Of a DNA stretch of 40,358 nt, positions 10,407 through 25,905 are shown piece by piece. A model generated the notes under the pieces. That model worked only from the letters and a program-made list of their open reading frames with translations. It did not search any database and was not told where the DNA came from. The translations under genes and the position numbers were made by a program. Source of the DNA: a virus; IMG/VR virus record IMGVR_UViG_3300042317_001266, positions 1 through 40,358 of that record, one strand, 5' to 3'. Within the stretch, counting starts at the first letter, position 1; the number at the start of each line of letters is the position of its first letter.

Positions 10407-10703
10407 ATGGCGGGCAGGCACGTCACGAAAAGCCGCAGGGTCTACGTCGGCGATCGCCGGTGGACGATACAGCACGTCCGCTACCCGCGGGACCGCGACG
10501 GCGATTGTGATTGGGACCGCCGCGTTATCCGCCTCGCCGCAAACCTTTCCGGCATCCAGCTCCTTGACGCGTTGCTGCACGAGCTGCTCCATGCCCGGTT
10601 TCCCGATCTTGCGGAGGAGGTTGTCGAGGAGTTTGCCAGCACGGCCGCCGCGATCGCCCACCACGAGGGCTTCCGCCTGGCCGACGATCACGAGGAGGAG
10701 TGA
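10407..10703 (+). CDS. small zinc metallopeptidase-like protein (HELLH)
   Basis: A 98-residue protein. HELLHARF (about residues 56-63) is an HExxH zinc site inside a helix, followed by EEVVEEFASTAAA, where a downstream Glu can be the third ligand (HExxH...E). Short phage proteins of this build resemble minimal SprT/ImmA-type zincins and often lie among late genes, but their substrate is not known to me. The N-terminal basic segment (HVTKSRRVYVGDRRWTI) forms the preceding strands. AAGGAGG lies eight bases before the ATG. The next gene starts directly after its stop. Confidence 0.6.
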   Translation: MAGRHVTKSRRVYVGDRRWTIQHVRYPRDRDGDCDWDRRVIRLAANLSGIQLLDALLHELLHARFPDLAEEVVEEFASTAAAIAHHEGFRLADDHEEE

Positions 10704-13021: not shown

Positions 13022-13306
13022 TTGATTCGCCGCCAGCGACCAGACGAGACGCAGTTTCGCCACGGTGCCGGCGGCCGGGAGCCGCTGTCGCCGCCGGGGC
13101 AGGCTGGCGATCACGTCCACTACACGCCGATGAAGCGGGCCGGGTTAGGTGTCATCACGAGCCGAGACAAGAAGCCCACGTCGGCCCTCTCGTTTTTCGA
13201 GGTGCTCGCCTGGGAGTTGTCCGGTGCTGGCGACGCCTCCAAGGCGATCGTGCCCGGCTGCACCGTCCGCCAAGCCAAACAACTTTTCGACGAGGGGCTC
13301 ATCTGA
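13022..13306 (+). CDS. hypothetical protein
   Basis: A 94-residue soluble protein with a TTG start. The first half is polar and extended (RRQRPDETQFRHGAGGREPLSPPGQAGDHVHYTP). The second half is helical (SALSFFEVLAWELSGAGDASKAIVPGCTVRQAKQLFDEGLI) with one Cys. No family was recognised. Its stop overlaps the next start (TGATG), tying it to the run of small genes that precedes the cysteine peptidase. Confidence 0.45.
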   Translation: MIRRQRPDETQFRHGAGGREPLSPPGQAGDHVHYTPMKRAGLGVITSRDKKPTSALSFFEVLAWELSGAGDASKAIVPGCTVRQAKQLFDEGLI

Positions 13307-13665
13307 TGAGGGAAGTCATGCCAGAGCTCGAGCGTGAGATCGTCACGACCGAAATCGCCGCGTTCCTCGAGCGGGCAAAGTATCTCGCCGCCGGCGGGCT
13401 GACCGTCGCCGAGTTTGGGCGGTTGGCCGTCGATCTCATGCGGCTCGTTATCGGCCTGGTCGACAAGATCGCCGCGCCGGGGGCCGACAAGAAAGCCGTC
13501 GTGCTCGCGGCAGTCGGCGATCTGTTCGACGCGGTCGCCGACAAGGCCGTGCCGCTCGCGGCCTATCCGCTCTTTGTGCTGCTCCGTCCGGCCCTGCGTG
13601 CGTTGTGTCTGGCCGTGGCCGCCGGGGCCGTCGAGAGCCTGCTTCCGCTCGTGAGGGCTATCTAA
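13306..13665 (+). CDS. small helical, probably membrane-associated protein in the lysis-position cluster
   Basis: A 119-residue protein. Residues 1-60 form amphipathic helices. The C-terminal half has a hydrophobic stretch AVPLAAYPLFVLLRPALRALCLAVAAGAVESLLPLVRAI (about residues 80-119) long enough for one or two membrane passes broken by Arg. Position just before lipobox-bearing and membrane-anchored genes and the papain-like peptidase suggests a holin-like or lysis accessory role. No family match was recognised. It overlaps the preceding gene (TGATG) and the next start (TAATG). Confidence 0.45.
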   Translation: MREVMPELEREIVTTEIAAFLERAKYLAAGGLTVAEFGRLAVDLMRLVIGLVDKIAAPGADKKAVVLAAVGDLFDAVADKAVPLAAYPLFVLLRPALRALCLAVAAGAVESLLPLVRAI

Positions 13666-13919
13666 TGATTCTGGCAACTGCTCTGGCCGTGGCGGCCCTG
13701 CTCACCGCCTGCCCGTGGCTCGTGGGTCGTGCGGCGTCGGTCGTCGGTGGCGGCCTCGCGATGCCGGCCCACCGGCCCGCCGGCCCGACCTACCAGGGGG
13801 CGATCGCCGACTTGGCGGTTGTCCGGCTGCGACTGCTCGAGACGCAGCAGCTCACCGAGCAGGCCCGGGCCGCCATCGACACGCTGACGCTGGCACTCGT
13901 GGCAGGGAGCGATCAATGA
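13665..13919 (+). CDS. small exported or lipoprotein-like protein (LTAC)
   Basis: An 84-residue protein. Its N-terminus MILATALAVAALLTAC is hydrophobic and ends in a lipobox-like LTAC at residues 13-16, though it lacks the usual N-terminal positive charges. It may equally be a single transmembrane anchor. The rest is a helical segment (YQGAIADLAVVRLRLLETQQLTEQARAAIDTLTLALVAG) that could form a coiled coil. The size, export signal and pairing with the next membrane-anchored gene recall spanin pairs, but spanin identity is only a suggestion. The start overlaps the previous TAA and its stop overlaps the next ATG. Confidence 0.45.
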   Translation: MILATALAVAALLTACPWLVGRAASVVGGGLAMPAHRPAGPTYQGAIADLAVVRLRLLETQQLTEQARAAIDTLTLALVAGSDQ

Positions 13920-14383
13920 GCGAGCGATCCCGATACCTTCTGGCCGGCGCCCTGGTCGTCGGTGCCCTGTTCGCCTGGGTTGTCGACCGCCCGGCAACGC
14001 CGCCGAGCCCCGAGCCGTTCCCGCCGGAGCCGCTGCCGGTGATGCTCCGCGGCAAGTTCACCGGGCCGACGGGGGCGGAGGATGCGGCCACGATCTCGGC
14101 GCTCTGTGCGGAGCTCGCCGACGAGATCGCCTGGGATGGCCGGCAGGCGGAGCCCTTCCTGAAAAACGCCGTCCAGCTTGACGCATTGCGGACGCGGTCG
14201 CGTGAGCTCCGCTGCCGGGGCGTGAGCATCGGCGAGCGGCAGCCGGCGGCCCGCGATGCGATCCACGCGTACCTCGATACGGCAGTCGGCACGGCCGGCG
14301 GTCCAGTGAGTGACAAGCAACGCGCGGCCTGGGTTGACGCGTACCGCAATCTCGCGAGGGCCGCCGCTGATGCGACGCGTTGA
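13916..14383 (+). CDS. membrane-anchored protein of unknown function
   Basis: A 155-residue protein with an N-terminal signal anchor (about residues 8-24, RYLLAGALVVGALFAWVV), a Pro-rich spacer (residues 25-44) and a helical extracytoplasmic domain with two Cys (C68 region ALCAELADEI and RELRCRGVSIG). This topology puts the bulk outside the cytoplasmic membrane. It lies between the lipobox protein and the cysteine peptidase, sharing bases with both (ATGA at the start, 14-bp overlap at the end), so it probably works with them. No family was recognised. Confidence 0.5.
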   Translation: MSERSRYLLAGALVVGALFAWVVDRPATPPSPEPFPPEPLPVMLRGKFTGPTGAEDAATISALCAELADEIAWDGRQAEPFLKNAVQLDALRTRSRELRCRGVSIGERQPAARDAIHAYLDTAVGTAGGPVSDKQRAAWVDAYRNLARAAADATR

Positions 14384-15503
14384 CGACACTGCACGGTTCC
14401 GCCTCGCGGTTGCCGGACTCCTGCTTGGCCTGGCCGTGCTCGTGGCCATTCGGGCCGGCCTGCTCCTCGAGGGCACGGTCGGGTTTGGTGGTCGTTTCGG
14501 GTACACACCCAATCCCGAGGGCACGCGGCAGTTTCTCCAAGAGCTTGACGAGCCGCGGTTTTCCCAGGCCGCCCCCGAGTGCATGGCGAAGGCCCGGGGC
14601 GTCGACACGTTCCTCTATCGGGCCGCCGACAAGGCCCACCGGGCACGCTACGGCACGCCGTTCAAGGTCTGGCGGCAATCGATCGGCGACTGCGTCAGTT
14701 TCGGGTGGGGGCTGGGCATCTTCGTTTCGGAGAGCGTCGATTGGCAGAACGGCCAGCTGCAGGAGCCGCCGCTGCTCCCCTGCACGGAAAGCATCTATGG
14801 CGGTTCGCGTGTCGAGGCCCGCAACAAGCCCGAGGGGTCGGGCGGGTGGAGCGACGGATCGTACGGCGGCGCCGCGGCCCGCTGGGCTCGCGATTGGGGG
14901 GTGGTGTATCGCGAGGTCGTCGCCGGCCACGATCTCCGCATCTACTCCGGTGATCGCTCGAAGCAATGGGGAAACCACGGCAACGGTGGCCAAGGCGATA
15001 AGGGCCGGCTCGACGCGATCGCGAAGAAGCATCCATGCAAATACGTTTCGCTCGTGAAGACGTGGGACGAAGCGGCCGCAGCTATCGAGGCGGGTTTTGC
15101 GATCCCAGTGTGCTCAATGCAGGGATTCGCTTCCGTCCGCACAGACGGGGGCTGGGCCGCACCTTCCGGCCAGTGGGCTCATTGCCTCTGCCTGATCGGA
15201 GTTCGCTACCAAAAGAACGGCAGCCCACGAGACGGGATGCTGGTGGCGAACAGCTGGGGCGAGTCGTGGATCTCTGGCCCGCGGTGGCCCGATGATATGC
15301 CCGAGGGTTGTTTCTGGGCGGACCGGAAGACGATCGAGCGGATGCTCGCCGGCGAAGATTCGTTTGCGGTTGGTTCGGTGGCGGGCTGGGGCTGGCGTGA
15401 GATCCACAACGGCGAATGGATGCAACCCATGCCGGTGGAAACCATCGGCCGCCGGCCGTCGACCGCCCGGCTTGTGGCCGACGTATTCAAGTTGTCGTTT
15501 TAG
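14370..15503 (+). CDS. membrane-anchored papain-like (C1) cysteine peptidase
   Basis: A 377-residue protein. An N-terminal helix (residues 12-33) is a signal anchor or uncleaved signal. The papain-type set is complete and in order: oxyanion Gln and nucleophile in QSIGDCVSFG (Q103, C108), catalytic His in WAHCLCLIG (H271), and Asn in VANSWGESW (N294). C1 peptidases cut proteins. No classical endolysin (muramidase, amidase, transglycosylase) is found anywhere in the window. Its place among small membrane proteins makes it the best candidate for a cell-envelope-degrading enzyme, by inference only. The ATG at 14370 is preferred over a GTG at 14310 because the anchor then starts near the N-terminus. 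Confidence 0.8.
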   Translation: MRRVDDTARFRLAVAGLLLGLAVLVAIRAGLLLEGTVGFGGRFGYTPNPEGTRQFLQELDEPRFSQAAPECMAKARGVDTFLYRAADKAHRARYGTPFKVWRQSIGDCVSFGWGLGIFVSESVDWQNGQLQEPPLLPCTESIYGGSRVEARNKPEGSGGWSDGSYGGAAARWARDWGVVYREVVAGHDLRIYSGDRSKQWGNHGNGGQGDKGRLDAIAKKHPCKYVSLVKTWDEAAAAIEAGFAIPVCSMQGFASVRTDGGWAAPSGQWAHCLCLIGVRYQKNGSPRDGMLVANSWGESWISGPRWPDDMPEGCFWADRKTIERMLAGEDSFAVGSVAGWGWREIHNGEWMQPMPVETIGRRPSTARLVADVFKLSF

Positions 15504-15508
15504 GGGGC

Positions 15509-15778
15509 ATGATGAAACTCGACCGAAATACTCTCCTGCTCGTGGCTGCCGGCGTGCTCGTCTGGTGGTTTTCCGGCTCCCCTGCCCCGCAGCCGCAGCC
15601 GTTCGCTCCGCCGCAGGATCGCCCCGTGCTCCGCTGGATCGCCAAGGCCGCAAAGACCGCCCTTTGGATCATGATCTTCGCCGAAGGCCCGCCGGCCCAG
15701 GACCGCCCGCTCGTCCACGCTCACGGCGACATTGGCGAAGACGGCTACGCCACGATCCAACATGGCAGGGGGTGGTAG
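15509..15778 (+). CDS. small single-pass membrane protein
   Basis: An 89-residue protein. MMKLDRNTLLLVAAGVLVWWFSG forms an N-terminal anchor (residues 7-22), followed by a Pro/Gln-rich linker and a second hydrophobic helix (KTALWIMIFAEG, about residues 50-61). Two in-frame ATGs (15509 and 15512) follow a GGGGG stretch. It has no recognised family. As part of the tightly packed lysis-position cluster it may be a holin or another envelope factor. The C-terminal HAHGDIGEDGYATIQHGRGW is His/Gly-rich. Confidence 0.5.
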   Translation: MMKLDRNTLLLVAAGVLVWWFSGSPAPQPQPFAPPQDRPVLRWIAKAAKTALWIMIFAEGPPAQDRPLVHAHGDIGEDGYATIQHGRGW

Positions 15779-15779
15779 C

Positions 15780-16076
15780 GTGACGCTTTACGAATGGCTC
15801 GTCGCTTGGCTCGTGTCGCTGTCGGCCGGCCCGGGGGCCGTCGACGCGGAGGCGCCACGGGCGGCAGCCGCAGTCACCGCCGCTCGAGCGAGCATGATTG
15901 CCGACGGCCCGGCGCCCCCGGCCCCGGCCCCTGCTGAGTGCGTCTGCGGTCGGACGTGCGTCAATGGAACATGGAAGCCCGACGGGCGGATCGAGCAGCG
16001 GTGCACCTGCACCTGTGAGCGATGCAAGCGGAAGCCCGCCCTCCCCTGCCCCGATGGCAAGTGCCCGCCACGGTGA
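15780..16076 (+). CDS. Cys-rich membrane-anchored small protein
   Basis: A 98-residue protein with a hydrophobic N-terminus (MTLYEWLVAWLVSL) and an Ala/Pro-rich middle. The C-terminal 45 residues hold nine Cys in CVCG..C, CTCTCERC and PCPDGKC patterns. Paired CxC and CxxC spacing suggests metal binding (zinc-ribbon or metallothionein-like) or, if exported, a disulfide-bonded knot. A GTG start with GGGGGTGG upstream is used. ATG 15762 is an alternative that would overlap the preceding gene by 17 bases. No family was recognised. Confidence 0.5.
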   Translation: MTLYEWLVAWLVSLSAGPGAVDAEAPRAAAAVTAARASMIADGPAPPAPAPAECVCGRTCVNGTWKPDGRIEQRCTCTCERCKRKPALPCPDGKCPPR

Positions 16077-16079
16077 AGC

Positions 16080-16466
16080 ATGGAAGCCCTCGAGCGGCTC
16101 GTCGCCCACGTCTCGGAACAATGCGGCCAGCGTGCCCGCATGGCCGGCCGTGCCCGCGTGCACGAGCTCACGCGTCTGGTTGTCCGGCACTGGCCGCACA
16201 ATCACGTCGAGGCCATTGAGCGGCACGGCGGCAAGAACAACGCCGCGGCCGCTCACGCGATGATCCTCGTGCGTGCCCAGGTTCGCGAGCAATACGAGGC
16301 CCGGCACGATGTTGGCCCGCTCTGGGATCTCTTTCTCGGCGGCCTCGTGGCGTCGATCTGCAGCTCCGTGCTCGATCTCTGGCTGGCCGATCGGGCGTGG
16401 CGGGTGATGCTCCGCGGGTTGTCCCGCCAAATCGCCGCGGAGCGGTCAGCGGATCGCACCGAGTAG
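16080..16466 (+). CDS. hypothetical helical protein, last gene of the rightward late block
   Basis: A 128-residue protein. The N-terminal half is His/Arg-rich and helical (MEALERLVAHVSEQCGQRARMAG, then HELTRLVVRHWPHNHVEAIERHG). The C-terminal half has a moderately hydrophobic helix (PLWDLFLGGLVASICSSVLDLWLA, about residues 81-104) and a basic end. No known motif. The gene ends 21 bp inside the 3' end of the minus-strand small gene at 16446-16610, marking the convergent boundary of the accessory block. Confidence 0.45.
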   Translation: MEALERLVAHVSEQCGQRARMAGRARVHELTRLVVRHWPHNHVEAIERHGGKNNAAAAHAMILVRAQVREQYEARHDVGPLWDLFLGGLVASICSSVLDLWLADRAWRVMLRGLSRQIAAERSADRTE

Positions 16467-18507: not shown

Positions 18508-19434
18508 CTACTCGGCGGCGGCGGCGGGCTCGAGCTCCTCGGCGGCCGCTCCGCCGGGCTGCTTGGAGTGAAGGAACGCGGCGGCCCGGCTGGCGGCGGC
18601 GGAAGCGGTGAATATCGCCCGCTTGTCGGCCTTCATGATCTTCAGCCACGACGCCAGATATTCGGCGTGGTCTTCGCGGGGCTGGGGCTCAATGCCAAGA
18701 TCGGCGGCCAAGAACGCGGCCCCCAGTTCGGCAATGAGCTCCTCGGCCGCGTATTTGTTTTCGCCAAATCTCGACGAGAGATCGCGGGCGAGGCGGGAGC
18801 CGTGGCCGGTCCAATGCACGAGCTCGTGGGCAAGCGTCGCCGCGTGGTAGCCCGCATCCTCAAAAGCGGAGGCATCAGGCATCTGGACATAGTCCGCGGA
18901 CGGGTTGTAATAGGCGCGGCCGCCACCCTCGCGAATATCGGCGCCGGTATGGCCGAAAAACTGCATGGCCGCGGCGATCGGTTGCACGTCGCCGGCCGGC
19001 CGCTCTACGGCCGCGGTGAAGTGCTCCGGCAGCCCTTCACACTGTTCGGCATTGAATACCGCATAGCTTTTCAGGAACGGGATTTCACGCTCTTGGGTTG
19101 TCCCGTCGGCCCCCTGCTCCTCTTTCTTGAAGACGCCAGCGTAGACGACGGGCGTGGACTTCTCGCCCTTCTTGACGTGGCCGCCGAGCTCGCGGGCCTG
19201 ATTGAACGTCAGCCAGAACGGGCAGGAATAGCCGCCGGCCTCCGCGGCCATCCAGAGCACGAGAACATTGACGCCGGAGTAGGGTTGCCCGTTGTGGCGG
19301 AGCGGCCGCGACGCGGCCCCGGTTGTCCATGGCTTGTGCCACGGGGCCACGTCGCCAGCTTCAAGCCGGGCAACAATGGCATTGGTCACGTCAGCGTAAA
19401 CGTCGCGGCGGGTTGTGGTGCTGGTCGTCTTCAT
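18508..19434 (-). CDS. ardC: ArdC-like antirestriction protein with zincin domain
   Basis: A 308-residue protein. The N-terminal domain (residues ~8-140) is the ssDNA-binding ArdC-type region: VYADVTNAIVARLEAG..PWHKPW, then RHNGQPYSGVNVLVLW, FWLTFNQARELGGHVKKGEKSTPVVY and YAVFNAEQCEGL. The C-terminal zincin domain holds HELVHWTGH (about residue 201) with the later AAEELIAELGAAFL supplying the Glu ligand. ArdC proteins protect incoming DNA from restriction and are typical of conjugative plasmids and some phages. The start at 19434 is chosen from GAAGG upstream. A longer frame has no support. The C-terminal Ala/Glu tail is low complexity. Confidence 0.85.
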   Translation of the reverse strand: MKTTSTTTRRDVYADVTNAIVARLEAGDVAPWHKPWTTGAASRPLRHNGQPYSGVNVLVLWMAAEAGGYSCPFWLTFNQARELGGHVKKGEKSTPVVYAGVFKKEEQGADGTTQEREIPFLKSYAVFNAEQCEGLPEHFTAAVERPAGDVQPIAAAMQFFGHTGADIREGGGRAYYNPSADYVQMPDASAFEDAGYHAATLAHELVHWTGHGSRLARDLSSRFGENKYAAEELIAELGAAFLAADLGIEPQPREDHAEYLASWLKIMKADKRAIFTASAAASRAAAFLHSKQPGGAAAEELEPAAAAE

Positions 19435-19482
19435 CTTTGAACCTTCTTGGGTTGTGGCGGGTTGTCCGCCGGGTTGTGTGTC

Positions 19483-19498
19483 GGGCGACGTGCCCGGC
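19483..19498 (-). repeat. 16-bp intergenic repeat (copy 2)
   Basis: Exact copy of 18439-18454, in the gap between the ardC-like gene and the next minus-strand gene, again adjacent to three GGGTTGT copies. Confidence 0.55.
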
Positions 19499-19508
19499 CG
19501 CACGGTGC

Positions 19509-19532
19509 CCGGCCGCCACGAGCGGCGGCCGG
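19509..19532 (-). terminator. GC-rich hairpin downstream of 19550-19744 gene
   Basis: Perfect 9-bp stem CCGGCCGCC / GGCGGCCGG with a 6-base loop, 18 bp past the stop of the gene at 19550. No T-run follows on the minus strand, so it may attenuate or stabilise RNA rather than terminate intrinsically. Confidence 0.4.
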
Positions 19533-19549
19533 TGGCCGTGGGGCCGCGG

Positions 19550-19744
19550 CTACTTGGCGGCCGCCCGCATCGCCTTGACGAGCTCGCGGGCCTCTTGCCG
19601 GTCGTCACACGTCGCGACGTGATGCCGGGCACCGTCGGGCGTGATGCTTTCGATTTCGTACCAGCAGCACGCGCCGCGGCTGCGGGGGTCTGCAATGCGG
19701 ATGATGCGGTAAACGGTCGTCGGGTTGTGGGGCGTGTTATCCAT
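19550..19744 (-). CDS. small hypothetical protein
   Basis: A 64-residue protein (MDNTPHNPTTVYRIIRIADPRSRGACCWYEIESI, then DGARHHVATCDDRQEARELVKAMR). The alternating strand pattern with a C-terminal helix suggests a small alpha-beta fold. It has three Cys. AGGAGCCCC lies upstream of the ATG at 19744, and the reading frame further upstream is not supported. A motif TTTATTGCCGATTG with a -10-like GATATA sits 22-42 bases upstream. Function unknown. Confidence 0.45.
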   Translation of the reverse strand: MDNTPHNPTTVYRIIRIADPRSRGACCWYEIESITPDGARHHVATCDDRQEARELVKAMRAAAK

Positions 19745-21020: not shown

Positions 21021-21452
21021 ATGATGCGAATTCTCGCGGTAATCGCCCTGCTTCTGCCGGCGCTCTCGGCCGCCGACGAGCCGAAGCGGGCCGGAATGGT
21101 CGAAGCGAAAACGAAGGCCGTCGAGCCGAAGATCGACAAGGCCGTGGCGAGGATGCAGGCGGCAATCGCCCTGGTCGAAAACGACGAATGGCTCGCGGAA
21201 ATCGCCCACGATGCCGCGACGACCGGCCGCTACAAGACCCCGAAGCTGCCGGACGGCGTGGTCGTGACCGTCATCATCCACGAATCGTCTGAAAAAAACC
21301 CTTTCGGCCGTATTCCGACGCCGAAAGCACGCGGAAACGGTGCCGAAATGATCCAAGTGGCCTACAAGGTGGCCGAGGGCAAGCGCGGCGCAAAGCGGGC
21401 GATCATGTGGGTCGACAAGCAAAAAATCGACTACAAGCGACTCAGGCCGTAG
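21021..21452 (+). CDS. secreted protein in the lysogeny region
   Basis: A 143-residue protein with a clear Sec signal peptide (MMRILAVIALLLPALSA, cleavage predicted before ADEP). The mature part is basic, with a helix rich in Glu/Lys/Ala (VEAKTKAVEPKIDKAVARMQAAIALVENDEW) and a C-terminal alpha-beta section (GVVVTVIIHESSEKNPFGR, then YKVAEGKRGAKRAIMWVDKQKIDYKRLRP). GAGGAG precedes the first ATG. It stands alone between the non-coding region and the integrase, with an 11-bp convergent overlap. Lone secreted genes next to the integrase are often expressed from the prophage (morons). Function unknown. Confidence 0.6.
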   Translation: MMRILAVIALLLPALSAADEPKRAGMVEAKTKAVEPKIDKAVARMQAAIALVENDEWLAEIAHDAATTGRYKTPKLPDGVVVTVIIHESSEKNPFGRIPTPKARGNGAEMIQVAYKVAEGKRGAKRAIMWVDKQKIDYKRLRP

Positions 21453-22344
21453 GTCGGCCCATCGCCGGCGGCGGATCGACGCCGAGCGGCCGCGGAAATA
21501 CGCGATTTCGGGCGACAATCGTCGGGTCAACGTAACTGTCGTAGGCGATGCGGCTGCCCGGCGCGTGCCCCAACTGGACGCTCGCGGCCCCCTGCTGCTG
21601 CAGTTCGCAGTCGGTCGAGCTCGAGCGGCGGAGCCACTTCCACGTCCCGGGCCGAATCCCGGCCTTGAGCACCAGGCGGTCGAGCTGGTCGAGGAACGTC
21701 TCCCGGCTCGACGGCCACGGGACAACTAGCGGGCGTTGACATACGTCAAGCGATGCCCGAAGGGCCGCCATAGTGGCCTCGGACAGCCGGAACGTGACGA
21801 CGCGGCCCGTTTTGCTCTGCGTCCATGAGGCGAACCCGTCCGGCCGGATCGCCGAGACGGGAATCGCGATCAAATCGCCCCACCGGACACCGGAATCCCA
21901 GGCGACGCGGACGGCCAGATCCCACCAGACGCTCCGGCGGAGCCCGCACTTGTGCCACCGCGGCAGCGTGCGGCAGGCGGCCAGCAACTTCTCGACCTCC
22001 TCGAGCGTCCAGCACTGGACGACCGGCCTCGCACACCGGACGGAGCGAATCCTCCGCCCTGGCGGCTCGCAGAGCCCCTCATCGGCGGCCGCCCGCCAGA
22101 GGGAAAGCACTTGGGCCTTCTTTGAGCGGACTGTGTACGGGCGTACAGTTGCCGCGTAATCGCGGAGCCACGCCGAGACGCTCTGCGTATCAAGTTCTTG
22201 GAGTGGGACAGGCCCACCCGCCCACCGCTCGAAAAGCTCCGCCGCCATGCGGTACTGGCGAAGCGTCTCAGGTCGGCAGTCGTGGAGCAGGCCGTAGTCG
22301 CGAGCGTAGTCGCCCAACGTCCGCGGGCCGGAGCGGCAATACAT
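21442..22344 (-). CDS. int: tyrosine recombinase / phage integrase
   Basis: A 300-residue site-specific recombinase. The N-terminal SAM-like core-binding region spans about residues 8-95 (ETLRQYRMAAELFERWAG, TVRSKKAQVLSLWRAA). The catalytic domain has SGVRWGDL with R154, SKTGR with K178, the box II region WLRR (R240), LGH (H260) and the nucleophile in IAYDSYVD (Y268 or Y271). The His of the usual HxxR is replaced by Trp or Lys, which some integrases tolerate. The gene ends near the attachment site side of the lysogeny region and starts about 200 bp from the tRNA-derived att core, the usual int-attP order. Confidence 0.9.
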   Translation of the reverse strand: MYCRSGPRTLGDYARDYGLLHDCRPETLRQYRMAAELFERWAGGPVPLQELDTQSVSAWLRDYAATVRPYTVRSKKAQVLSLWRAAADEGLCEPPGRRIRSVRCARPVVQCWTLEEVEKLLAACRTLPRWHKCGLRRSVWWDLAVRVAWDSGVRWGDLIAIPVSAIRPDGFASWTQSKTGRVVTFRLSEATMAALRASLDVCQRPLVVPWPSSRETFLDQLDRLVLKAGIRPGTWKWLRRSSSTDCELQQQGAASVQLGHAPGSRIAYDSYVDPTIVARNRVFPRPLGVDPPPAMGRPTA

Positions 22345-24168: not shown

Positions 24169-25082
24169 CAATTTCGATTCGCAAAGCAAAGCGGTCGGCC
24201 ACGAAACTGCGACTGCTCACGACCGGCCCGAGTGGCGCCGGCAAGACCTACGGCAGTTTGCTCGTGGCCAAGGGGCTCGGCTGCAAGAACATCGTCGTGA
24301 TCGACACGGAGCAAGGCTCTAGCGATCTCTACGACACGCTGGCTGACTTCAATGTCATCGACCTCGCCCCGCCGTTCACGCCGGAGCGATACATCGAGGC
24401 GATACAGACGGCGGAGCAGGCCGGGGCCGACTGCATCATCATCGACAGTATTTCGCACGAGTGGAACGGCAAGGGTGGCTGCCTCGAGCTGGTGGACGAG
24501 ATCGCCAAGGCGAAATTCAGGGGCAACACTTGGTCGGCCTACTCGGAAATCACCCCGCGGCACCGGGCCTTCATCGACGCAATGCTGCGGTCGAGTGCCC
24601 ACATCATCGCGACCGGGCGGGCGAAAACTGAGACGGCGCAAGTCGACGACGGGGGCAGGAAGAAGGTCGTCAAGTTGGGCATGAAGCTCGAAAGCCGCGA
24701 CGGTGCGGAATACGAATTCACGCTCTGCCTCGACATCGTCCACGACGGCCACTTCGCGGTGGCAAGCAAGGACAGGACGGGGCTTTTCGGCGGCGACCCG
24801 AAGCCGATCACGGAGGAAACCGGCCGACGGCTCGCGGCGTGGCTGGCCGGCGGCGAGTCTCGCCAGCCGGAGCCGGAGGCCAAGGGCGACGACGGTCTTT
24901 TCAAGAAGGCGGCCGACGCGATCGACGCGGCCGACTCCGTCAAGAAGATCGCCCCGATCTCGAAGCGGATCGACGCCCTGGTGGCCGACGGCACGCTCTC
25001 GAGCGAGCAGTGGTCGGCCCTCACCGACAAGGTCGACGCCAAGCTCCGCGAGCTGACGGAAAGCGAGGCTTCGAATGTCTGA
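24165..25082 (+). CDS. RecA-like AAA ATPase (AAA_24, Sak4-like)
   Basis: A 305-residue ATPase: Walker A GPSGAGKT (residues 21-28), an acidic VIDTEQGSSD after the second strand, Walker B CIIIDS (D94), a sensor-like region HIIATGRAKTETAQ (about residues 146-160) and ASKDRTGLFG near residue 203. This order matches phage AAA_24 proteins related to Sak4, which promote single-strand annealing with an SSB partner. The C-terminal ~90 residues (after GGESRQPEPEAKGDDGLF) form a separate helical region. The SSB-like gene at 26439 and the Hjc-like nuclease at 28532 lie in the same operon, consistent with a recombination module. Confidence 0.8.
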   Translation: MTISIRKAKRSATKLRLLTTGPSGAGKTYGSLLVAKGLGCKNIVVIDTEQGSSDLYDTLADFNVIDLAPPFTPERYIEAIQTAEQAGADCIIIDSISHEWNGKGGCLELVDEIAKAKFRGNTWSAYSEITPRHRAFIDAMLRSSAHIIATGRAKTETAQVDDGGRKKVVKLGMKLESRDGAEYEFTLCLDIVHDGHFAVASKDRTGLFGGDPKPITEETGRRLAAWLAGGESRQPEPEAKGDDGLFKKAADAIDAADSVKKIAPISKRIDALVADGTLSSEQWSALTDKVDAKLRELTESEASNV

Positions 25083-25905
25083 GCACTACGAAACATTCGT
25101 TTCCGTCGCCATCGACTACCTCTCGCAGCGGAGCGTCTCGCGACACTACTCCGAGAACGTCACGCGGATCGCGACGCGGGCCGGGGCGATCTCAACGGAG
25201 CGGGTCAACGCGTTCCTCAAGTGGCGTCTCGAGCAGGTTTCCACCGTCACGGCCAAGGCCGAGCGGGTGGTGCTGCTCTCGCTCTGGCGGGCCGCCTACG
25301 AGGCCGGCAAGGTGAACGACCCGCCGCGAGGCGTGTTGCGGATCAAGGCAAAGCGGCCGCCCACGCGGGCGTGGACCGTCGAGGAAATGCGGAGGGCCAT
25401 CGCCAAGACCGACGAGGTCCGCGGGCGAACCCTGCGGAACGGAGCCGATCTCGGTGCGTTTCTCAAGTGCTGGCTGCTGCTTGGCTACGAGAGCGGTGCC
25501 CGGCGGGGCGACATCTTCTCGTTCACAAGCCAGCACCTCGACGGCGACGTGCTCCGCTGGACGATGGCGAAGACGGGCGACCCAATGACCAAGCATCTGT
25601 CGCCGGCCTGCCTGCGGGCTTGCTGGGAAATGCTCGAGCAATCGCCCGATGGCAGCATTTTGGCCTGGGTCGTTCAGCGGCGTCGTGCGGCGATTCTGCT
25701 CAAGGAGCATCTAGACCGCTGCGGCATGGTGGGCTCGAGCAAGTTCCTGCGGCGATCTGGGGCGACCCATATCGAGATTGAGTCGCCGGGCCTCGCCACT
25801 CGCCATCTGGGCCACAGGACGGCGGCGCTCGCCAGCCAGGCCTATCTGGATTGGGGCCAGATTCGCAAGTGCAGCCCGCAAACCCCCGTGCTGGTGGCGT
25901 CATGA
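25075..25905 (+). CDS. second tyrosine recombinase, within the replication operon
   Basis: A 276-residue protein with the full catalytic set: ESGARRGDI (R143 or R144), AKTGD (K166), FLRRSG (R226/R227), HLGH (H247) and ASQAYLDW with nucleophile Y257. As in the first integrase, the His of HxxR is missing. It shares with it LSLWRAA, WT.EEM, SGxRxGD and LRRS, so the two appear related to each other. The core-binding domain is short. It starts inside the ATPase gene by an 8-bp overlap and no att-like repeats flank it. It may resolve genome multimers or invert a segment, and is unlikely to be the lysogenic integrase. Confidence 0.8.
   Translation: MSEHYETFVSVAIDYLSQRSVSRHYSENVTRIATRAGAISTERVNAFLKWRLEQVSTVTAKAERVVLLSLWRAAYEAGKVNDPPRGVLRIKAKRPPTRAWTVEEMRRAIAKTDEVRGRTLRNGADLGAFLKCWLLLGYESGARRGDIFSFTSQHLDGDVLRWTMAKTGDPMTKHLSPACLRACWEMLEQSPDGSILAWVVQRRRAAILLKEHLDRCGMVGSSKFLRRSGATHIEIESPGLATRHLGHRTAALASQAYLDWGQIRKCSPQTPVLVAS

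Follow-up and report, generated by a model that had tools for sequence, protein, structure and literature searches.

The described systems that lie closest to the locus analyzed here are the peptidases of family C1A (papain, the cathepsins and xylellain; PF00112), the signal-anchored (SAR) endolysins, the lytic peptidases of the CHAP, NlpC/P60 and C39 families, and the C1 peptidases of uncultured Caudovirales and giant viruses in BFVD. PeiW and PeiP (C71), the pseudomurein endoisopeptidases of methanogen viruses, are cysteine peptidases that lyse hosts with non-murein walls. The exit of tailed phages from bacteria without peptidoglycan, or from ones that can dispense with it, is an open question, and there is dispute over what keeps planctomycete cells intact. 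The C1 peptidase family and the concept of a lysis cassette are both known. No description of a system such as the one proposed below was found in the literature searched, which is also silent on the combination of the two, on its link to particular hosts and on how large this uncatalogued family is.

The window, by which we mean the whole stretch of 40,358 nucleotides analyzed (positions 1 to 40,358 of IMG/VR record IMGVR_UViG_3300042317_001266), encodes at 14370-15503 a protein that resembles these systems in part. It has the fold, the Q-C-H-N order and the NSWG motif of family C1A, and two of its relatives (L161 and L189) exceeded the gathering score of Pfam Peptidase_C1 (PF00112). Like the SAR endolysins it combines an N-terminal membrane anchor with small membrane proteins as neighbors, and it shares with the CHAP, NlpC/P60 and C39 peptidases the papain-like superfamily and Cys/His chemistry. 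Its structural matches in BFVD are annotated as Peptidase C1. We consider it somewhat probable that 13306-16076 serves late in infection for lysis (particle release) and that in this cassette a papain-like protease, cutting a load-bearing envelope protein, replaces or outranks a muralytic endolysin. The features of the region are:

13306-13665, plus strand: 119-aa helical, hydrophobic protein, weakly assigned as a candidate holin or membrane partner; cluster present in 46/80 viral loci and also in Blastopirellula
13665-13919, plus strand: 84-aa small membrane protein with homologues in L005, L013 and L089
13916-14383, plus strand: 155-aa TM-anchored protein with a periplasmic helical domain, the usual immediate upstream neighbor of C1
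14370-15503, plus strand: signal-anchored C1A papain-like cysteine peptidase, 377 aa (Q103/C108/H271/N294-S-W-G), from the open ORF, homologue alignments, AF2 and Foldseek
14385-14477, plus strand: N-terminal transmembrane helix, residues 6-36 (AF2 helix; KD maximum at 14-32)
14676-14693, plus strand: oxyanion-hole/nucleophile segment Q103..C108 (Q-S-I-G-D-C), with Q, G and C invariant
15180-15182, plus strand: codon of catalytic H271, invariant in homologues
15249-15260, plus strand: catalytic Asn motif N294-S-W-G, from homologue alignments; homologue L207 has an intein at exactly this point
15509-15778, plus strand: 89-aa small membrane protein encoded after C1; its cluster occurs in 38/80 viral loci, about +0.27 kb
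15780-16076, plus strand: about 98-aa protein with a hydrophobic N-terminus and a Cys-rich module; cluster in 46/80 loci
16080-16466, plus strand: 128-aa protein with one hydrophobic segment, the last gene before the minus-strand block; less conserved (6 loci)

The earlier note had described a C1 signature behind a signal anchor and among small membrane genes, and each part of this description was confirmed. Q103, C108, H271 and N294 are in place, the last followed by S295-W296-G297. Q, C, H, N and W were identical in 80/80 viral homologues from the close relatives. Among 81 homologues with identity down to about 21-25%, Q103, G106, C108, H271 and S295 were invariant and N294, W296 and G297 were at least 90% conserved. 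With such conservation, the catalytic set is not a product of chance. The peptidase domain is preceded by a single strong N-terminal hydrophobic segment (residues 14-32) inside the predicted helix 6-36; this segment is Gly/Ala/Leu-rich, yet strongly hydrophobic (KD 2.38), and an N-terminal hydrophobic segment was found in 32/32 close-clade representatives. The small membrane genes are those at 13665-13919, 13916-14383 and 15509-15778, and starts and stops overlap.

The AF2 model of the C1 protein had a pLDDT of 89.8 and a pTM of 0.84 with an 81-sequence alignment, which was used instead of a 6-sequence input (pLDDT 39). In the model, C108 opens a long helix (108-126), H271 lies within a strand (265-279) and N294 directly follows another (289-293). 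Foldseek against the PDB placed xylellain first (E 5.5e-10) and cathepsins B, L and S and papain next, and a profile of the 81 homologues matched mainly C1 proteases among PDB sequences (best E 1.1e-3). Used as a single query, the protein had no match in Pfam, PHROGs, PDB sequences or INPHARED phage records; these empty searches reflect a detection limit and are not a defining feature. No known muralytic domain was found in it with Pfam or PHROGs, the CHAP, NlpC and C39 families included in Pfam gave no match, and one relative matched Peptidase_C39_2 at E 0.16 only. By fold, catalytic order and sequence relation the window protein is a C1A peptidase, for which hydrolysis of peptide bonds is predicted.

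More than 500 loci in IMG/VR encode the C1 family, which the searches did not find in Pfam, PHROGs or INPHARED; 272 stretches matched the close profile and 507 a more divergent one, and the two sets may overlap. C1 mostly lacks the anchor in phages of larger size, on contigs reaching 221 kb, where it lies beside secreted helical proteins and small membrane proteins that include a BhlA-like one. Two C1 loci were present on each of two large phage contigs in IMG/VR (L166/L177, 221 kb; L170/L172, 206 kb). At L193:1138-2883 and L195:7821-9548, C1 is fused to a second TM segment and a Pfam-supported thioredoxin domain, and L189:4444-6084 has a similar C1 tail with a CPAC motif only. The homologue at L207:7929-9953 carries a LAGLIDADG-domain intein exactly between the catalytic Asn and SWG.

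The neighbors of C1 recur co-oriented across the 80 close loci. The cluster of the 13306-13665 protein, present in 46 of these loci about -1.05 kb from C1, consists of helical proteins of 120-166 aa; the window protein had no convincing PHROG or Pfam match, and the stop of its gene overlaps the following start (TAATG). Relatives of the 13916-14383 protein occur in lipoprotein or signal-peptide form. Counterparts of the 15509-15778 protein (cluster protein, 88 aa) were also found in Blastopirellula and in G401, a 35,575-bp C1-bearing relative with a 127-bp direct terminal repeat. In other clades the counterpart of the 15780-16076 protein bears a thioredoxin domain. Thioredoxin was found beside C1 in 10/80 distant loci versus 0/80 close-clade loci, so it was rejected as a universal partner of C1; the window's own clade has the Cys-rich module instead. 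The only holin match in the cassettes was at L202, BhlA-like and weak (Pfam E 1e-3, below the cut-off; phrog_2429 E 1.6e-5). The position of the cassette varies: in the window it comes behind the tail genes, in most relatives the prohead protease and capsid genes flank it, and in Blastopirellula marina it immediately precedes the terminase.

Several other genes were observed in the window and its relatives. The 98-aa protein at 10407-10703 (plus strand) has a HELLH zincin-like motif, is conserved ahead of the cassette in 7 loci (as cluster 22) and is possibly a small metallopeptidase. The genes at 18508-19695 (minus), 21442-22344 (minus) and 25075-25905 (plus) likely encode an ArdC-type anti-restriction protein with a zincin domain and two tyrosine-recombinase-like proteins, assigned by position; they point to a temperate phage. 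A CsrA-like regulator is also encoded (Pfam CsrA, E 7e-15). A second, C1-less prophage of the planctomycete genome G394 has a secreted C39-like protein in the equivalent slot adjoining small membrane genes (L261:2971-3555, minus); a Q..C..H..DN pattern was visible by eye, and PDB sequences gave no match.

Among the bacterial genomes scanned, C1 was present in Planctomycetota records, in an unassigned MAG and on a short contig of an alphaproteobacterial MAG, and this last match (L090, 6 kb) was treated as probable misbinning. The family was present in 12/392 Planctomycetota genomes. PF00905 (PBP transpeptidase) was missing from 15/392, and all four genomes with the TM-anchored close clade were among these 15 (Fisher, p=1.4e-6; p=1e-3 after collapsing one genus). 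Taking all C1 carriers together, 5/12 were without PF00905 compared with 10/380 other genomes (Fisher, 2.7e-5), an association that involves few lineages and in which MAG incompleteness may bear on the absence of PF00905. Three further close-clade hosts outside the 392-genome sample also lacked PF00905, and MraY scored over the cut-off in 0/7 close-clade hosts (G001, G126, G338, G344, G003, G004 and G005). Among chromosomal carriers, close-clade C1 is linked to PBP-less hosts. Hosts of distant C1 homologues mostly have PBPs (G157, G199, G288, G304, G326, G366, G394 and G002), and MraY was also found in hosts of distant homologues. Because these homologues live in PBP-bearing hosts, absence of peptidoglycan is not required. 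Terminase relatives of the window occur in PBP-bearing hosts as well.

The literature on planctomycete envelopes is mixed, and our reading of wall composition relies on PMC10632474 and PMC4432640. Peptidoglycan synthesis genes, including mur, are dispensable in Planctopirus limnophila, and a Cys-rich YTV protein was suggested to contribute to wall rigidity (PMC10632474). Older work described a disulfide-bonded protein sacculus (PMC2754498), and planctomycetes with lysozyme-sensitive peptidoglycan sacculi exist (PMC4432640).

The main rival explanation is that C1 is a true endolysin, that is, a papain-fold peptidase comparable to CHAP, NlpC/P60 and C39 domains that would cut the cross-link peptides of peptidoglycan. 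Papain-like folds are common in muralytic peptidases (PMC10318531), the C1 model weakly matched mycobacteriophage Lysin A in BFVD (E 4.4e-3), and the hosts of distant homologues include some with PBPs and MraY. However, the fold and motif are those of a C1A protease (NSWG, cathepsin and xylellain neighbors) and not of CHAP or NlpC, the close-clade hosts have neither the PBP transpeptidase nor MraY over the cut-off, and no wall-binding domain was fused to C1 among the family members scanned. We regard a true endolysin as unlikely.

No muralytic enzyme had been noticed when the window was first read, and this held for the best 25 of 33 Pfam families, the other eight having E-values above 2.5e-4, and also for the best 25 of 142 PHROGs. 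Two independent contigs (42.1 and 43.8 kb) are colinear with the window and begin and end almost where it does, so the window is probably near complete and the missing part of the genome small. The called genes of G401 matched 22 Pfam families and the Blastopirellula phage-like cluster matched 17, all of which were listed; none was muralytic in either, and thioredoxin was present in the Blastopirellula cluster. Amidase_2 was absent from 28 C1-bearing records. An additional muralytic gene beside C1 was considered for PBP-bearing hosts, and none was seen among 48 sampled genes (11 Pfam families) of the G394 and G199 prophage regions. A missing match is not a missing function, and a muralytic enzyme could be hidden among the unannotated genes.

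Such a hidden gene would be central to a second alternative, in which C1 is a lysis helper: it would destroy outer-membrane or S-layer-like proteins in a spanin-like last step, or activate another lysis factor by cleaving it, and an unrecognized gene would do the main job. The cassette includes several anchored proteins of no known function, and the 13916-14383 protein is an almost constant partner of C1. G401 and the Blastopirellula cluster offered no candidate for the muralytic gene, although unannotated genes remain in them, and a helper role appears rather unlikely.

Chromosomal copies of the cassette bear on two further alternatives. In Blastopirellula-type genomes (G001, G344 and G126), a structural cluster of about 26 kb with the C1 cassette occupies the same chromosomal site (L107-L109; about 3,953,700-3,980,000 of G001:C2 in Blastopirellula marina). 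It contains terminase, portal, protease, capsid and tail genes in addition to the cassette, and no integrase was recognized in the clusters of the three genomes. The cluster proteins diverge at the pace of flanking host proteins, and NG86 dN/dS was 0.08-0.36 across the cluster and 0.12 for C1. The cluster resembles a gene-transfer-agent-like element that is inherited vertically, and is a candidate gene transfer agent. That the cassette was kept together with capsid and terminase genes fits a function in release.

A third explanation is that the cassette, like a moron, alters the envelope of the lysogen or infected cell (superinfection exclusion, receptor removal or anti-defense). A stand-alone C1 cassette with lipoprotein and thioredoxin genes is flanked by host genes, with no phage neighbors detected, in a Planctomycetota MAG (L091:9142-12062), and PHROGs classes one BhlA/UviB-like neighbor under bacteriocin production/immunity. 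Most loci, however, place the cassette on the same strand within late structural modules, it has been kept under purifying selection in a structural cluster without an integrase, and it has spread across very different phages, which makes this explanation improbable. The place of C1 in most relatives, with the prohead protease gene on one side and the capsid gene on the other, might suggest a maturation protease (virion or prohead) or a protein for ejection. This is highly improbable: a head-maturation role was rejected on account of the separate prohead protease (Peptidase_S78 in G401), C1 has an N-terminal signal anchor, and in the window and Blastopirellula its location is not tied to head genes.

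Under the proteolytic lysis proposal, we infer the export, activation, substrate and lytic action of C1 as follows. The enzyme would enter the inner membrane through its signal anchor and expose the catalytic domain on the outer side, as its topology suggests, and would be held inactive by tethering, by oxidation of C108 or by the adjacent anchored helical partner. Collapse of the membrane by a small membrane protein would end this inactivity. In other clades, the thioredoxin partner could act as a reductant of the catalytic cysteine or of disulfides in the envelope. Freed C1 would then cleave load-bearing envelope proteins, which in planctomycetes may take over or share the mechanical role of peptidoglycan, and the cell would burst. 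The TM-less sister clades of C1, found beside holin-like genes, may be a holin-released version, in parallel with soluble, holin-released endolysins as opposed to SAR endolysins.

More broadly, and tentatively, planctomycete phages and gene-transfer-agent-like clusters may lyse their hosts by a papain-like "proteolytic endolysin" that dismantles a protein-based, load-bearing envelope instead of peptidoglycan, with a thioredoxin partner in some clades that keeps C1 reduced or opens envelope disulfides. The earlier note had speculated that lysis by a protease might suit hosts with protein-rich envelopes. The C1A identity of the enzyme, the occurrence of the cassette at varied positions across very different phages, the lack of a recognized muralytic gene in G401, the PBP-less hosts of the close clade and the purifying selection in Blastopirellula give that suggestion partial and unexpected support; the distant homologues in PBP-bearing hosts leave some probability to a role in cutting peptidoglycan peptides or to an accessory one. 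These homologues also count against the proposed lysis cassette, as do the weak holin assignment, the lysozyme-sensitive sacculi of some planctomycetes, a muralytic enzyme that may be hidden among unannotated genes, the lack of thioredoxin next to C1 in the window's clade and the terminase relatives of the window in PBP-bearing hosts. If the proposal is true, the phage C1 enzyme would become a probe, with the load-bearing envelope proteins identified as its substrates, and it would establish a group of lysis enzymes that are not muralytic. It would also mean that current phage annotation has missed a viral family of more than 500 loci, and it would supply the release module of the Blastopirellula phage-like clusters.

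The window protein differs from each of the systems it resembles. In family C1A it is set apart by having no PF00112 match, by its N-terminal signal anchor and by its place in a phage late-gene cassette. The spacing from Q to C is 5 in the window protein (QSIGDC) and 6 in papain. Its sequence identity to the BFVD C1 peptidases, for which neither genomic context nor function is given, is only 13-16%. PeiW and PeiP belong to a different peptidase family and act on a different substrate. The CHAP, NlpC/P60 and C39 lytic peptidases are other families, whereas the window protein has the C1A arrangement, the NSWG motif and cathepsin-type neighbors. In contrast to the SAR endolysins, its anchor carries a catalytic domain that is a C1A protease.
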